Positions 23,526 through 48,357 of a DNA stretch of 64,000 bases are shown here, one piece after another. Position 1 is the first letter of the stretch, and every line of letters begins with the position of its first letter. The notes beneath the pieces are model-generated. The model was not told the DNA's origin. It ran no database searches and was given only the letters and a program-made list of their open reading frames with translations. The stretch is from Oryzias latipes. Lineage: Eukaryota > Chordata > Actinopteri > Beloniformes > Adrianichthyidae. The stretch is from contig NC_019867.2 in the NCBI RefSeq assembly GCF_002234675.1, positions 631,001-695,000 of the forward strand, written 5' to 3'. A program made the position numbers and the translations under genes.

Positions 23526-37600
<14,075 letters not shown>

Positions 37601-38568: not shown

Positions 38569-40202
38569 GGGCCTGTTTCAGAAAGGAGGTTAAGTGTAAA
38601 CTCTGAGTGCGTTAACCCTGAAATCAGGGAAACCCTGGGTTTTCCGTTTCAGAATGGGAGGTTTGTTAAACCAGAGAAAGCAGAGTAAGTCAAACCCGTT
38701 TCTGAAAGAGAGGTAACTTATACTCGGAGTCAGTGTCCATGGTTACTTATGCTGTGAACCTAACCTGGTCGGGAGCAGGTTTTATTCTCCAAACTCAAAG
38801 TTTCTGCCGGTCCCCTCCCCTTTTTAAAGACGAAGCGGTATTTTTCGCTTTAACCTTCATTGCCCACATTTCCGTCACACAGAGACGGTCTAAGTGACAA
38901 GAATGGCTTGTTCTTTTTTGGAGGACCCAATAGACGAGGAGGCTGCATTAATTCATAGAGAATTACATTTACGAGGATTTTGAGAAGACTCGATTTTTTT
39001 TTTTCACTTTTAGCTGCTGCCATGTTCTTTTAATTCCTGCAGGATTGCATCTACATGAAAATGAAATCAGGGACATTAAATTAGATTAATGTAACAATTA
39101 CTTTTTGGAAACACAATTTGCTAGCACTGCTTACTTTCTTAATCCCATATAAACCTATACCACTTGATCAATACAAGGGTAGTGCTGCAGTGTGTGTGTG
39201 CTGAGCGGGGTGCGATCCACGAGAGAGAAGGGGAGGGGCGAGTGCAGGTGCAGATGGGGGGGGGGGGGGGGGGGTAGAGCGTGGTATATATTGTGTGTTC
39301 GGAGGACGGAGCACTTCGTTAAATAAAGAGAAGGTGTCATTCCCAGAATAACTGTTTTGGAGTCATTCTTAATCCGCTCTGGAGGTTGAGGGTTTCCAAC
39401 GGGAAGTGAACCCCGAAGGAGAATTCCCTTCGGCCCTGAAGGAAATCTCCCCTGCGCTTCTGACCACGGTCGGTCGGAAAGACGAGAGAAAAGAAAGGAG
39501 AAGTCTTCGCGCAGCGAAAGGTTCAACAGTAGACAAAAGTTCACTTTTAAAAACACAATTGCATGTATTAATATTAAACTGACCAACGTTTGCAAGAGGG
39601 GAAGGTTAACAAAAAAGTCCTCTAAACATTACTGACGTTAAATGCACCCCCCCCCCCCCCCCAGATTGGTTCTGTACACTATGCAGCATTTCATGCATTT
39701 ACACCAGGAATGAGACTTCAAAAGTACACCTAAATATAGCCATTTTTTATTTCACACCTTACGCTATTTAAAAAATTATTACAGCCAATATTTTATAACA
39801 ATGATTTAAATGCAAACTTGCGCATTAACTTGAGCAGCTATGTTTTCCACACTAACTGTCTCTGTTTTGCAGATGCAGCGGTGTTGCTTTTCTTCTGGAA
39901 TATGTGCTCATATTCACTGTAACTCTGCAGCAGCACGTCAAGTTCAGCTGGCGAAAAATACGCAGACCTCTTTTTTTCACGGTTGCCATGGTGACTCGTA
40001 ATATCTGCGCTCCATTGATAATGGCTTCTTATAGTCGCGGTGCGCACGCTCACCTCCGAATCAGTCCACTCAGAATTGATTGACCTAACTCCGATCAGCT
40101 TCTCTGAAACAGAAAACTCAGAGTTGTTAATCTCCCGATTGACCAACTCAGAGTTCAAGTTTAACCTCAGAGTTGGTTGAACCTCCTTTCTGAAACAGGC
40201 CC
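38569..40202 (-). mobile_element. PIF/Harbinger-type element 1, with nested insert
   Basis: Perfect terminal inverted repeats gggcctgtttcagaaaggag with CAG on both sides (38,566-38,568 and 40,203-40,205). On the minus strand from about 39,990 to 39,840 it encodes a Myb/SANT-like DNA-binding domain fragment (EKKRSAYFSPAELDVLLQSY) of the kind carried by Harbinger second genes. The ATG in accatgg is out of frame with this domain, so the copy is broken. No transposase is left. An LTR-like module is nested at about 39,150-39,540. Confidence 0.85.
39150..39540 (+). repeat. LTR-like module nested in Harbinger element 1
   Basis: Shares, in order, tgtgtgttcgga/aggacga, aataaagag, ccagaataa, ccgctctggag/cccgttctggag, ggaagtgaacccc, cttctgaccac and aggttcaac with 58,915-59,110 and, inverted, with 25,300-25,600. 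The layout (polyadenylation-like aataaa, then a conserved tail) suggests a solo LTR or a piece of one. Exact ends and a target duplication were not found. Confidence 0.5.
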
Positions 40203-40556: not shown

Positions 40557-40561
40557 TTCAG

Positions 40562-42184
40562 GGGGGTATTCCAGAAGGCCCGTTTAAACTCCCCTGACTT
40601 TAACCCTGAACTCTGGCTGAAGTCCGCCTGAACTTGCTTACTCTGGGTATGTCGGTTTCAAAAGACCGGATATGAGTTAACGTAATTACGCTCCACTTGG
40701 TAACCCTGGGTTAATGCACGTGCACAGCAGGTACATAAAGACATTCTCAATGGATCGCAGATTTCTGGAGTCACCATGGAAACGCGTGGAGAAAAAAAGA
40801 GAGCGCTATACTTCAGTGAGACGGAGTCTGAGATTTTAATGACGGCGTATGAAGATTATACGACCATCAAAAAAGTGACACGGCTGCATCATCAGCAAAA
40901 GAAAGAGTTTCCGGTAAATCGTTGTTGCTGCTACAGCGCAGCCTCGCGGGGGCAAAACGGCTCCCAGCGTGTTTCAGAAGCGGCGGCGGCGTGCCGCCGG
41001 TCCGAACCCTGGCGTCCCGGGCCGTGTGTCTGCGGGCGCTGCGCCCGCTTCTGCCCGCCGGGACGCGCTGGCAGCCCCGCTTCTTCTCCAACAAGGTGAG
41101 CCCGGAAAACCGAATCCTCCGGTTCCCGGGATGAACGTGTAACGGGAGGTGCGGTGAGCTTTGATGTTTTCCGGAATAAAAATGTGCTTGGAGAAAAGGA
41201 ACGGACAAAGTAAACGCACGAGTTTCTATTTCATTTCTATTTTCATTGTGAGGCATATATATATGTAACTTATCCAACTTAAATTCATTCAATTGGTAAC
41301 AAATAATCGAGTTCAATTTATTCAACCTAACTTCTTACGTCTATCCAACTCAATATTTGTTATATAATTCAAATGTACATATTTATCTAACTAAATGTCA
41401 TATTACTCCAATTCAATTTAAGTTTTTCCATCTTAATTTATTGTAATTCTTGAACTATCTAATGTCTAAGTTTGAGCCTGGAGATATTCTCATTTTTATA
41501 ACAATAAAGTAGTGGTGCTAAATATCTTCATCCCTCATCCTCCTCTTCCTCCCTCTCACTCATGGTGCAGAAAGAATTAAACATAACATGATGAAATAAC
41601 TCAACAAAACACAGTAAAACAGCTAAACAACTAGACACATTTGGTCAAAAACCCACACTTAAACCCAAATCCGTCCAAACAGGCAAAGGGAATGGTATCC
41701 CACAATCCCTTGCGGTGCCGATCTAACAGCAGCACCAAAGTTACACCTACTTCATTGAATTAATTTGAATGAAAGTAAAATAACTATCTGAAAACTACGT
41801 GTTATTTTTAAACTGACTTAACAAAAAATGATTTATCTTAACTGAAACAAATAATGAAGTTAGATCAAAGTAAAAAGTTTTTCTTTCCAACATCCATGTG
41901 TGGTCTTATCAGCCTCTCACGGTGGAAAAAGTATTATCTGAGCTTTTTCATCCACTAAATCATCTTCAAATGGACACGCCATGCTGCTTCACCTCTCTGA
42001 AAACAAACTATCCTTCAACTAAACCTGCTCCGGACCAGGTTATGTTCAGAGCATGAGTTGCTATGGCAACTTGACCTACCCTGAAACATACCTCCATTTC
42101 TGGAACCAAAAGCTGAGGTTATCAACTTCCTTAGCCTCAAACTTACCGTGGGAGCTAGCAGAACCTGCTTTCTGGAATACCCCC
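40562..42184 (+). mobile_element. PIF/Harbinger-type element 2 carrying a grsf1 fragment
   Basis: Inverted ends gggggtattccagaa, each bordered by CAG (40,559-40,561 and 42,185-42,187), 1,623 bases in all. From ATG 40,776 it encodes the start of a Myb/SANT-like domain (METRGEKKRALYFSETESEI), clearly related to element 1 but on the opposite strand. At 40,910 the element sequence switches to a 277-bp copy of grsf1 exon 1. AT-rich non-coding sequence follows to the right end. No transposase, so it must have been mobilised in trans. Confidence 0.88.
40910..41186 (+). pseudogene. Captured grsf1 exon 1 fragment inside a transposon
   Basis: Identical without any mismatch or gap to 46,118-46,394 (constant offset 5,208). 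It includes exon 1 from the second base of codon 3 onward (encoding the mitochondrial leader), the GT donor after the exon, and 91 bases of intron 1. It lacks the grsf1 start codons, promoter and all RNA-binding domains, so it cannot make GRSF1. Both edges of identity fall inside the transposon. Confidence 0.95.
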
Positions 42185-42413
42185 CAGGAGTAAGGACTCA
42201 GACCATAAATCCCGCAAATGTTATAGCGTTTTTTCTCAAAATGCTCCCCCCCCCCCTAAAATTAGGGTTTAATTCAAGAACATCTTTTAAGATTAAAAAC
42301 ATTTTTTTTAATTAATTAAACACAACTGAACTTTTCAAACAAGGACCGAATTTATTTCTGCTTTCGAAATTTGAATAATATTTAATAATTAGATTAATAA
42401 TAATAATTATTAA

Positions 42414-43111
42414 ATGTCTGTCAGTCGTAGTAAGACAGAATACATGTGTCTGAACGAGAGGGATCAAGGTAGAAGCGTTAGGTTACAGGGAGCTGAGGTG
42501 AAGAAGGTGCAGGAGTTTAAGTACTTGGGGTCAACAGTTCAGTGTGATGGGGAGTGTGGAAAAGAGGTGAAGAGGCGAGTGCAGGCAGGTTGGAGCGGGT
42601 GGAGGAAAGTGTCAGGAGTGTTGTGTGACAGAAGAGTGCCAGCAAGACTCAAAGGAAAGGTGTACAAGACAGTGGTGAGACCAGCTCTGCTCTATGGGTT
42701 AGAGACGGTAGCAGTGAGACAGAGACAAGAGGCTGAGATGGAGGTAGCAGAGATGAAGATGTTGAGGTTCTCCTTAGGAGTGACCAGGTTAGACAGGATA
42801 AGGAACGAGTACATCAGAGGGACGGCTCATGTTGCCTGTGTTAGCGACAAAGTCAGAGAAGCCAGACTGAGATGGTTTGGACATGTTCAGAGGAGGGATA
42901 GTGGATATATTGGTAGAAGGATGTTGGAGATGGAGCTGCCTGGCAGGAGGGCAAGAGGACGGCCAAAGAGGAGATACATGGATGTCTTAACAGAGGACAT
43001 GAAGTTGGCTAACGTTAGGGTAGAAGATGTCCATGATAGAGTGAGGTGGAAAAGGATGATTCGCTGTGGCGACCCCTGATGGGAAAAGCCGAAAGAGAAA
43101 GAAGAATAATA
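42414..43111 (+). mobile_element. RTE-type LINE, 5'-truncated reverse transcriptase end
   Basis: An intact 221-codon frame matches the C-terminal part of fish RTE-type LINE proteins: SKTEYMCLNE, FKYLGSTVQ, RRVPARLKGKVYKTVVRPAL, LYGLETVAV, LRWFGHVQRRDS and GRPKRRYMDV. It lies beyond the catalytic YxDD, which is missing. The 3' end tggcgacccctgatgggaaa agccgaaag followed by a short (aat)n tail is typical. The clade is given from memory. Confidence 0.88.
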
Positions 43112-43113
43112 AT

Positions 43114-45823
43114 AGACCTTTTTCACACTTCCGCATTTTTCGACCGGAAATACGTCAATGACGTGTAAAACAACTTCCTGTTAGCGTAGCAGCAGATATG
43201 AAGAATGGCAGAGTCGAAGAGTTGCAGTTTCTGTTGTGTTCCAGGCTGTTCGTCTTCCAACCAAAAACAGTCCTACCTTTCATTTCATTATTTTCTTCTG
43301 GATCCAAACCTGAAACCAAAATGGATATAGGCGATCCGAAGAGATGAAGGGCATAGTTTTAATGTAAACACAGGTAGCACCCTCTGCTGCCGGCACTTCG
43401 CTCCGGATTGTGGTGCGGCTGCGCCGTTCGTCGCCTGAAGAGTGGTGTTGCCCCGAGTATTTTCCCTTGGAAAAACTTTACTGCTCCTTTGAGAATTGAG
43501 TCAGTATATGACAGAAACGTCAGGCTATGCAGCTATGCTGTGAAGATGGCGACACGGTGGCTAAGCTAAGGCAGTAAATGGATCAGGACTACGGGACACA
43601 CCCACCTGCAGGTAAGGTTTTTCATAATGTGTTTAGTTAACGCTAGTCAACTATGTGTACCGTTATTGGATAAATGCATTTCTACCTGAACAAATGAATG
43701 TTTATAATAAAAGCTGTTCATGCTCTCACCTATTTTAATTACATGTATTTAACTAATTTTGAGCATTTTGTCATTAACAAAAATAAATGCCACTGCCACT
43801 TTAACCATGCCACTGTTCTTTAGCACTGTTTAGACTACTGTTATTCTTCCTACTATTACTGTCTTTATATCTATTTTTAAGTCGTTTATTTATTATTTTA
43901 TATGCTGCTTGCACTGTGGGGTGAGAGGAAAGCAATTTCATCTGTGCTGTATGTCTGATGGATGCAGCATACTTGACAATAAAGCTGACTTTGACTTTGA
44001 AATGAAATGTATTTGTAATTAAATACTTGACATACTTTTCAAAACATGATTACTGTGTTGTGTTGAAAGGTAGCATAAATATATTAAGACTGGTTTTTAA
44101 TTTCTTTCCAGGTGCTCTGGATGAGGCTTTGATTACATCCATGACTTAGAAGCCAAGTTCCTTTGCTGGAGCCAGGAGACGATGTCATGGCGGACAAAGA
44201 GTTCCTCGTTCAAGACCTGCTTACTGACATTGGATCTAAGATCATGATTCCACCTTTTAAGCTTTCAGCTCCATCAGCAAGGAGGAAACAGAACAAACGC
44301 AGCCATCACCCGCCTCAGAATTATAGTGGAAAGAGTGATCAGCAGGATAAAGTCCTTTCACATCAGGGACTCTCCCGTGCCGCTCACACTGATGGGCAGT
44401 GTGAATCAGATCTGGCTTAACTGCCGTGTTTTGGCAAATGATCATGGACTTTTGTTTTGAAGAGTGAATTAATGTTTGGTATGTAAATAATGTATAATGT
44501 GCAAATAGTATGGAAAAATTTAGTGTTTCCACATATTCTTAAAATCTAATAAATATAATTGTTATATTCGTAATATTTTTCTGTTGAAATGAGACTTTGA
44601 CTACACAAAAAAATTAGATGAACAAATAAAACAATTCTGGTCAAAATTGTGCCTCATTTAATTTTTAGGTATGCGTAACAACAACTGATTAATCACAACT
44701 CAAATAACATCAAACATTTACAATAAAAAATAACATTACAGATCAACAGTAAGACAGAAGGCTGAACTGATTGTTAAAGACAAGATAAGTGTAATTTAAG
44801 GTATGCATTCATGCATTTGCCATAATATATATCCAAGTTCTCTTTCTTTTCATCTCAGGGGGCTGCACCTGGCATAATCTGCTTCCAGATGCCATCATAT
44901 ATGGATCTGGCTGTGGTCCTACACAAGAGAAACACAACACACAAAAGTTAGACATAAGTGCATAACTACATTTAGATTTAATTCATTATATCTGCTGTAA
45001 CCATAATTTGGTTAGTCATAAGATTAGAAAAAAAAACTTTCTGCATCCATCCAGTGATATCTGGAAACAATAAATTAAATAGGTTACAGTTAAGACATAC
45101 TTATGTTGCTACATCAATGTAACATGAAACTATAACTTTCAGTAGGGTGACCAGATTTGAGTTTGTAAAAAAGAGGAGTGAAGTGAGTTTGTGAGTAATT
45201 GGTGTTCAGAGCTGCGTACATAAAGCAAATATGATTACATTTCATCTATGTTCAATGTTATTTTATTATATAAGTATCAAAAAAGAGGACATGTCCAGGA
45301 AAAGAGGACGTATGGTCACCCTAGTTTCAGAAAAATAAGTGAAGAAAGTGCCGCAACCGCAGCAAAATAAATGAACACGCATACGGGCAACTTAACATTT
45401 CTTATTTACAGCTTCACCAAATTTTTGGGTGTTATGTTAATCTCATGCCTTTTCACTTAAACATACACACAACATATTCACTGCGATGTGTTATACCTTA
45501 TATTACAAATAACACCAGGATTTACAGTTGACGTAAACACACAGAGTTACTGTGATGCGGCTATGGCTAAGCTAGCTGAAGCTTACCTTGGTAATGGTGG
45601 ATAAACTCTTCGTGGACGAATTTATATCCCTTGTCCAATTTATTTCCTTTAGTGGACGAATGCATCTTCACACTCTTCACCACATCGTCGCTGGTGAACT
45701 TCGGAACACAACTCAGGCTCTTCGAAAACACTCTAGGCTCTGCCATTCCTCTGCCAGCGAAGCACAAACCGGAACTATGTTTACACGTTGATGACGTACT
45801 TCCGGTTTTTGCGAAAAAGGTCT
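43114..45823 (+). mobile_element. Defunct ISL2EU-like transposon with THAP domain and DDE transposase
   Basis: Ends agacctttttc and gaaaaaggtct with AT on both sides. At 43,206-43,440 a THAP-type zinc finger can be read: CCVPGC near the start, CCRHF near the end, interrupted by an in-frame TAG after PKWI. At 44,163-44,450 remains a DDE_Tnp_4-like transposase: DDVMADKEFLVQDLL contains the second Asp, and ITRLRIIVERVISRIKSFHI, in another frame, contains the Glu. The two parts are separated by frameshifts. THAP plus DDE_4 with an AT target duplication fits ISL2EU/IS4EU elements. The right end lies about 290 bases upstream of the grsf1 ATG. Confidence 0.8.
45143..45323. mobile_element. Small MITE nested in the ISL2EU-like element
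   Basis: Inverted ends tagggtgaccaga and tatggtcacccta, 181 bases. Inside, aagaggag and aaaagaggac motifs occur. It is flanked by similar but not identical ctttcag/gtttcag. Confidence 0.75.
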
Positions 45824-45959
45824 ATTATTAAATATTTTGTATTTGTCTATTTTTAATTCAATCAAAGGGTTTCTTTTCTTCAGAAAGTCAACAAACTAAA
45901 AGAATCAACAACAAAACTGTTTGTAAACAATAATCATGTTCTAACAGCGCTGTGTGCTT

Positions 45960-46111: not shown

Positions 46112-48357
46112 ATGATGTCCGGTAAATCGTTGTTGCTGCTACAGCGCAGCCTCGCGGGGGCAAAACGGCTCCCAGCGTGTTTCAGAAGCGGCGGCGGCGT
46201 GCCGCCGGTCCGAACCCTGGCGTCCCGGGCCGTGTGTCTGCGGGCGCTGCGCCCGCTTCTGCCCGCCGGGACGCGCTGGCAGCCCCGCTTCTTCTCCAAC
46301 AAGGTGAGCCCGGAAAACCGAATCCTCCGGTTCCCGGGATGAACGTGTAACGGGAGGTGCGGTGAGCTTTGATGTTTTCCGGAATAAAAATGTGTTTATA
46401 ATCGTCTGGAAACTAAACATCAAAAGATGCCGTCACTTCCGGACCCTTTAGAAATAAGAGGACACCACTGCGGTCCTCTCTGGGGGGGTGTTGTGTGTGT
46501 GTGTGCGCGCGCGCGCGTGCTTGCGTTCTCCTCAGGGATGTATTTGCTGCGTCACTCATCCAGATCATGGCCTCCTCCTTCAGGGAGGGGACCAGGAGGC
46601 GTACCCGCCGCTGCCGGCCTATGACCAGCAGGAGAGCAGGGAGGTGTTCATCGTGCAGGTGAGAGGCCTGCCCTGGTCCTGCACGGTCCACGAACTCCTG
46701 CACTTCTTCTCAGGTGAGTCTGAGCGGGACGGGTGAGGATGGGTGAGGACGGGGCTGACCCCCGTCTGCTGCAGACTGCAGGATCCGCGACGGGGAGAGG
46801 GGCGTCCACCTGACCTTGGACCGGCTGGGGAGGCCGTCGGGCCGGGCCTTCATCGAGATGGAGCACGAGGAGGACGTGAGCAAAGCTCTGGAGAAGCACC
46901 GGCAGTACCTGGGTCCGCGGTACGTGGAAGGTCAGTCCGTCCCGCTCCGTCTGCTGCAGTTCCGGACCAGAACCAGAACCGCTTTACAGAGAACGCCGTC
47001 TGTGCTCAGTGTCCGAGGTGACCAACAGCGACGCCGAGACCATCCTGCAGCATGTGGCCCCGCCCGCCGCCGAGGACGGCGTGGTCATGCTCAGAGGACT
47101 CCCCTTCTCCTGCACCCAGGACGACATCCTCCTCTTCTTCTCAGGTTCCTCTCCTTCATCAGGGTTGTTTGAACGGGGCGATGTGTTCGTGTCCCTGCAC
47201 GGGACGCGGACATCGCAGCGCAGACGCAGCAGATCTGTCCGCCTGCTCTCATGGTGCTCCTCTCAGGGCTGGACGTCGTGGAGAACGGGATCACCATGGT
47301 GACGGACGGCAGAGGAAGGAACTCGGGCGAAGCCTTCGTGCAGTTTACGAGTCAGGAAGTGGCGGGAAAAGCTTTGCAGAAACACAGAGAGCTGATGGGA
47401 CACAGGTGAGGCCCCGCCGTCCGGACCTGGACCTGTTCTGGTCCCGAGGATTTACGTCTGAACGCAGACCGGCCTTCGCCTCCGTTAAACTCCTCTTCTC
47501 AAAGTTGATATTTCCCGCTGTAAACTCCCCCGGGAGAAGATTTGTCTTCGGTCTTTGGATCCTCCCGAGCGCCTCTGATGAACTGAAAGGTCCGTGTTCT
47601 GTCCGTCCTGCTTAGATACGTGGAAGTGTTTCCCAGCAGAAGCAGTGAGATCCGCTCCACCTGGAAGAGGAGGAGTTCACTTCCCCCTCAGAGCGCCTCC
47701 CCACCCGCCGGCAGGCCGGCGTCTGCGCCGCACAGAGCCGGTGAGAGGGCGCCGCTCTTCCAAAGCCGCCAGGCTTTTATTTTGGTGACGTCTGGGCTCC
47801 TCCTTCAGCTGTTCAATCCTAACTTCAAGCCGCTTCAGTTTCTCCTCAGAGCTCGGAGGCCAACAGCCACTTCATCCACATGAGAGGGCTGCCCTTCCAG
47901 GCTTCAGGGGAGGACATCGTCAAGGTGGGACACCAGCGGACGGCTCATCAGGAGCCGGAGAAAACTGCTTTTCCTGGCGTTTTCCCGCTAAATCAGGAGC
48001 TAAAATCCGAACCTCAAACCTGCACTGAATGTTGTAGATGTGTGGGCTGCTTTAAATCCTCGGGGGAAGTGACGCTTTCATTCCCTCCTGCAGTTCTTCT
48101 CTCCGTACGTCGTGTCAAAGATCATGATTGAGTGCAGGCCGGACGGTCGGACGAGCGGCGAGGCCGACGTTTACTTCAGCTGCCACAGGGACGCCGTGGC
48201 GGCCATGTCCAGGGACCGCACCAACATGGGTACGGACAAGAAGCTCTTCTGATCCTGAGCTCCTCCTGTCAGGTTAACGTGATGTTCCTCCTCACTTTCA
48301 GGTCATCGGTACATCGAGTTATTCCTGAACTCTGCACCCGACTCGGACCAATGCTGA
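46112..48357 (+). CDS. grsf1: G-rich RNA sequence binding factor 1, nine exons
   Basis: Exons: 46,112-46,303, 46,584-46,713, 46,775-46,930, 47,010-47,144, 47,267-47,405, 47,616-47,740, 47,839-47,924, 48,094-48,229 and 48,302-48,357. They give 384 residues, shorter than the human protein mainly in the linker before the third domain. Exon 1 encodes an Arg-rich, Leu-rich leader without acidic residues, typical of a mitochondrial presequence. Three quasi-RRM domains follow, at about 85-160, 183-257 and 303-378, each with a Gly-Leu-Pro-Phe/Trp core (VRGLPWS, LRGLPFS, MRGLPFQ). GRSF1 binds G-rich transcripts in mitochondrial RNA granules and supports mtRNA processing and mitoribosome assembly. Two in-frame ATGs lie at 46,112 and 46,115. 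Exon 7 must use the upstream acceptor ending at 47,838, because the nearer AG breaks the frame. The gene is convergent with rufy3. A 277-bp copy of its start sits in a transposon at 40,910-41,186. Confidence 0.93.

Follow-up and report, generated by a model that had tools for sequence, protein, structure and literature searches.

We analysed a 64,000-nucleotide window of the Oryzias latipes genome (C9:631001-695000; "the window" denotes this whole stretch), in which a short non-autonomous transposon of Harbinger type and the resident gene grsf1 lie on the same strand (Table 1). The translation of the nine-exon model of the gene matches an O. latipes protein without a difference (100% identity); this protein is named heterogeneous nuclear ribonucleoprotein H2 (hnRNP H2) in one source and G-rich RNA sequence binding factor 1 in another. 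Most of the named fish relatives, among those listed, are called G-rich sequence factor 1, and the name grsf1 was adopted here for the gene of the medaka protein. Pfam recognized three RRM_1 stretches in the product, and its best match to a solved structure was hnRNP H (6dhs), with the GRSF1 chains 2lmi and 4qu7 also matched. In a six-row alignment, a comparable, less conserved N-terminal stretch opens five other fish GRSF1 proteins; in the medaka protein, this stretch is a putative mitochondrial leader. Because the comparable stretch in other fish places the leader in the parent gene, the direction of the copying described below was from gene to transposon.

Table 1. Coordinates of the transposon, the captured segment and the parent gene in the window
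Feature	Position	Strand	Details
Harbinger-type element (PHIS superfamily, putatively NuwaI-like), non-autonomous	40562..42184	+	1,623 nt; inverted ends, full-length siblings
Left target-site copy, CAG	40559..40561		read directly
Right target-site copy, CAG	42185..42187		read directly
Left terminal inverted repeat	40562..40584	+	arm 40561-40584
Right terminal inverted repeat	42162..42184	-	arm 42162-42185
Decayed Myb-like ORF, start	40776..40911	+	METRGEKKRALYFSETESEILMTAYEDYTTIKK, then other frame SDTAASSAKERV
Decayed Myb-like ORF, continuation	41189..41221	+	WRKGTDKVNAR
Captured segment	40910..41186	+	277 nt identical to grsf1
Strictly inserted part	40912-41184		273 nt, between shared TC (40910-40911) and TG (41185-41186)
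Copied part of grsf1 exon 1	40910..41095	+	186 nt, without start codon, GTGAGC donor at end
Copied part of grsf1 intron 1	41096..41186	+	first 91 nt
Resident grsf1	46112..48357	+	9 coding exons, 384 aa
Parent grsf1 exon 1, coding part	46112..46303	+	tandem ATG 46112-46117
Source of captured segment in grsf1	46118..46394	+	genome place C9:677118-677394

Several other features surround the two. A further Harbinger-type element, likewise flanked by CAG and bounded by perfect inverted repeats of 24 nt, occupies 38569-40202; its minus strand carries a Myb-like piece that scored above the Pfam cutoff (PF13873, 27.2 bits), and its plus strand carries what we take, by resemblance and with no Pfam match, to be a transposase-like N-terminus. 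Between the transposon of Table 1 and grsf1 lies an ISL2EU-like TIR element (43112-45830; 21-nt ends at 95%) with fragments of THAP (PF05485) and DDE_Tnp_4 (PF13359). Among the recognized TIR elements, the nearest one upstream of the parent segment ends at ~45,830, ~290 bp away. A 221-aa ORF at 42414-43079, which has no Pfam match, resembles the terminal part of LINE reverse transcriptases of fish. A long array of short tandem units spans 35650-37060, upstream of what we take to be the first exon of mapk1 (~37460-37600, minus strand), and Pfam placed a protein kinase piece at 24592-25020. Rfam, run over the window at gathering scores, returned nothing.

A within-window comparison aligned the captured segment with its source in grsf1 at 277 of 277 bases on the same strand (E 6e-147), with 5,208 bases from start to start, as the initial annotation had claimed in reporting 277 mismatch-free bases shared with the start of grsf1 about 5.2 kb away. 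The identity between copy and parent ends exactly at both joints. The splice donor of the copy (41095/41096) reads AAG/GTGAGC and corresponds to the end of exon 1 at 46303 in the parent, and the copy starts at the base that follows the tandem ATG of the parent. The annotation had also stated that the copy keeps the mitochondrial leader, the donor and part of intron 1; the donor and 91 nt of the intron are indeed there, whereas the leader is kept as DNA only, both ATG codons (46112-46117) having been left out. A retrocopy was ruled out because the intron sequence is retained and neither a poly-A tail nor a duplication is present at the joints. A Pack-TIR is defined by both TIR ends around a captured sequence that has a unique parent, a length ratio of 80-120% and at least 90% identity and that is not a retrocopy; a further criterion, meant to exclude segmental duplication, is that no TEs flank the parent within 100 bp. 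As regards this last criterion, the parent stretch belongs to grsf1 proper, and the nearest recognized TIR element ends ~290 bp upstream of it. Both TIR ends enclose the segment examined here, which has one other place in the genome, matches it at 277/277 and contains intron sequence.

To follow the distribution of the copied piece, the 277-nt stretch was used as a query against the genome, and it was found in two places, namely, the parent and this element (both of the two candidates were scored). The search skips very common words, and by this two-place result, the stretch is not common. There is no sign that the captured piece has spread, and the earlier suggestion that the element may be spreading a leader exon was not supported. 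A "leader exon on the move" likewise found no support, given the same two places and the lack of an in-frame start codon.

The inverted ends of the element, which the initial annotation had correctly recognized, are 24 nt long and 88% complementary (end sequence GGGGGTATTCC); one scan of viral contigs did not find the end sequence. The CAG target duplication that had been described along with them is present on both sides of this copy, but the siblings of the element differ. Target sites were read by eye in 21 both-ended siblings: four had agreeing sites (two CAG and two CTG), nine had CAG at the left end but CTG at the right end, and eight were of other types or unreadable. The nine CAG/CTG siblings are L011, L016, L019, L023, L024, L027, L028, L032, and L033. 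The NuwaI group of the PHIS (Harbinger-like) superfamily has CWG target duplications, ends of 12-61 bp that usually start with GGG, and a second ORF with a Myb/SANT domain, and it has been reported in 16 animals, 12 of which are bony fish (PMC4482050). The medaka family resembles this group in its GGG ends and its occurrence in a bony fish, and the CAG/CAG target of this copy and the putative Myb-like ORF would fit as well. The copies examined here are short and decayed, and they showed neither a transposase of their own nor one linked to them. The features point to a placement in the NuwaI group, although the fit is not complete: the Myb assignment is weak for this decayed family, and nine of the 21 both-ended siblings have CAG/CTG in place of identical target copies. 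Teleost Harbinger-like elements have been surveyed (PMC9179366) and provide the family background.

The Myb-like ORF is interrupted in the medaka element, whereas a single frame crosses the insertion site in the sibling copies L025 and L030 (SAKERVSAWRKRTK and ERVFAWRKGTDKVN). PF13873 matched a hand-joined peptide of the ORF with an E value of 0.0076 and 16.6 bits, below the curated cutoff of 21.7, and Pfam found no such match on the raw ORF or on three sibling ORFs. The AT-rich right half of the element had been considered as a nested insertion private to this copy and was rejected as such, since the siblings carry the right half too.

The siblings were collected by searching the genome (734 Mb, 25 contigs), where the best 40 of 3,345 candidates gave 113 matches; the sibling count is therefore a lower bound. 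We retrieved 36 of the 39 other scored places, the remaining three having matched the right part only, and 25 of the 36 could be followed through both flanks of the insertion site. The flanks of the site abut directly in 22 of the 25, such that element position 350 adjoins position 624; two have T for C, and one has five other nucleotides. None of the 25 readable siblings contains the grsf1 piece, and the comparison of copies with and without it, which the initial annotation had proposed, gave, among these places of the genome, one filled copy and 25 paralogous siblings that lack the piece. Because the flanks abut in the unfilled siblings, the net insertion was 273 nt, and no base of the transposon was lost. 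Insertions longer than 200 nt of other kinds occur in L015, L017, L019, L026, and L034, and also in L038; these look like dispersed repeats.

At each joint, 2 bp are shared between the element and grsf1, namely, TC on the left and TG on the right. In 200,000 trials of random joins, at least 2 bp were shared at both joints in 2.5% of trials, a summed length of at least 4 was reached in 7.1%, and at least 2 bp were shared at one given joint in ~15%.

To place the capture in time, we compared the divergence of the host element with that of its insert. The host element differs from the majority of 21 full-length siblings in 34 of 1,247 conserved columns (2.7%), 15 of which are strictly private; small gaps private to it and a longer deletion add to these differences. 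The copies are about equidistant, with nearest-neighbour identities of 91.0-94.3% (22 rows). By contrast, the insert differs from its parent at none of 277 positions, which places the upper bound on their divergence near 1.1%. If the insert were as old as the divergence of the element from the majority, 7.6 changes would be expected in it (P(0) 5e-4), and the private changes alone would predict 3.3 changes (P(0) 0.036). Fisher's test of insert against element gave p = 0.0023 for differences from the majority and p = 0.088 for private changes. Since the insert is unchanged at all 277 positions while the host element has diverged by 2.7%, the capture is probably younger than the arrival of the element. 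This supports the initial annotation insofar as it proposed a young capture of grsf1 sequence by a Harbinger-type element; it had read the perfect identity as a sign either of very recent capture or of upkeep by gene conversion. With these p values, the evidence for the order (element first, capture later) is moderate only, and constraint on the parent exon, by lowering the divergence expected on the parent side, counts against the timing argument.

The proximity of the parent, the 2-bp microhomology, the single copy, and the internal breakpoint match features described for animal Pack-TIRs by Tan et al. (PMC8277862), and we therefore adopted transposition-independent gap filling as the explanation. 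With a probability of roughly 0.78, the locus is a single-copy Pack-TIR that arose in cis when a gap in an already resident element was filled by repair, and that probably has no function. A decayed, non-autonomous NuwaI-like element with a CWG target would already have resided ~5 kb upstream of grsf1, and a break, or a stalled replication fork, would have occurred inside its Myb-like pseudo-ORF. At the 2-bp match TC, repair synthesis would then have jumped to grsf1, which has the same orientation on the same chromosome, continued there for another 273 bases through the exon 1/intron 1 boundary, and returned to the element at the 2-bp match TG; the element would thereby have been restored with no base lost. 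We infer both this repair route with a strand switch and the order from element to capture. The ISL2EU-like element may have lengthened the distance between copy and parent after the capture. Against the gap-filling reading, the microhomology is short, and each joint would be matched by chance in ~15% of cases.

It is also conceivable, although unlikely, that the capture was linked to transposition, the grsf1 piece having been taken up during excision repair or fork switching (transposition-dependent gap filling or the FoSTeST model) before the element was inserted here. The intact inverted ends and the CAG/CAG duplication would agree with such an insertion. However, the piece was found at two places, the parent is close, the element has lost nothing, and the insert is less diverged than the element; multicopy Pack-TIRs, moreover, lie far from their parents (PMC8277862). 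Less probable still is an older capture in which gene conversion between the 277-bp direct repeats has kept the two copies identical. Identical direct repeats ~5 kb apart would be a plausible substrate for conversion, and conversion could account for an unchanged insert (0/277) inside a host element that has diverged by 2.7%, but the identity reaches both joints with no decayed margin, whereas a conversion tract would not need to reach both edges. The least probable explanation is an assembly artefact in which a 277-nt stretch was misplaced: exact identity at a short distance invites this suspicion, but the window contains no N and lies within a 33.4-Mb contig, both flanks continue the sibling element exactly, and the overlaps of 2 bp are shorter than a false overlap join would be expected to need.

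We also considered whether the element could make use of the captured exon. When the element is read in the frame of grsf1, a TGA stands upstream of the copied exon, and neither the sequence ahead of the exon nor the exon itself offers an ATG. The ATG of the element at 40776 enters the copied exon in a frame other than that of grsf1 and stops at the donor, leaving no intact frame. As there is no ATG in the grsf1 frame and the Myb-like ORF is out of frame, the copy cannot give a leader as it stands, and the idea that the element offers a usable leader was not borne out. Residues 18-70 of the chimeric ORF, used as a protein query, returned no candidate. After in-silico splicing to exon 2 of grsf1, the Myb-like frame stops soon, and the grsf1 frame is open with no ATG before exon 3. 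There is no sign of a protein made from the copied piece, and a function for it appears unlikely. It is very improbable that grsf1 uses the copied exon as a distant first exon supplied by the transposon and spliced from 41095/41096 to exon 2 at 46584. If it did, a transcript that starts in or upstream of the element would yield a leaderless, extramitochondrial GRSF1 or a decoy 5' end, as the spliced mRNA would have no ATG in the grsf1 frame before exon 3.

Gene capture by DNA transposons is known from other animals. In a published survey, 370 Pack-TIRs were found in 55 of 100 animal genomes, including eight in zebrafish (Tan et al. 2021, PMC8277862). Of 281 unique Pack-TIRs, 160 (56.9%) lie within 15 kb of the parent and 190 have microhomology at one or both breakpoints (median 2 bp), and transposition-independent gap filling was inferred for most single-copy cases (PMC8277862). 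The medaka element resembles these animal Pack-TIRs in that host sequence lies inside a TIR element near a parent on the same chromosome, with microhomology at the joints and, as in most of them, in a single copy (PMC8277862). It differs in its superfamily: hAT and TcMariner account for 87.2% of the published Pack-TIRs, whereas the medaka case is of Harbinger type, and the words "Harbinger" and "PIF" are absent from the main text of that survey (PMC8277862).

Turmoil-1, a Harbinger element of Caenorhabditis elegans, holds exon-intron sequence of rsp-2 (Sela et al. 2008, PMC2572040). The initial annotation had considered such capture rarely documented for vertebrate Harbinger elements. The 370 animal Pack-TIRs, eight of them in zebrafish (PMC8277862), and Turmoil-1 (PMC2572040) weaken this statement, and it stands insofar as the main text of the survey names no Harbinger case. 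Our own literature search, which covered few subscription journals and took in articles without their supplements, found no earlier report of gene capture by a medaka Harbinger element.

The long inverted ends of Turmoil-1 harbour its captured pieces, the element is represented by a single complete copy besides eight fragments, and its 5' splice site is mutated (PMC2572040); by contrast, the medaka element has one filled copy, with the piece at an internal site and the donor unchanged. Plant Pack-MULEs and Pack-TYPE elements likewise carry gene fragments between transposon ends (PMC8903248), whereas the medaka capture is single and local. The medaka locus is a real, cleanly resolved and new case of a process already known. 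The parent, the element with its insert, and two dozen siblings lacking the piece can all be read in a single genome, and the joints are located to the base; the locus therefore shows with unusual clarity how DNA transposons of animals acquire pieces of genes.
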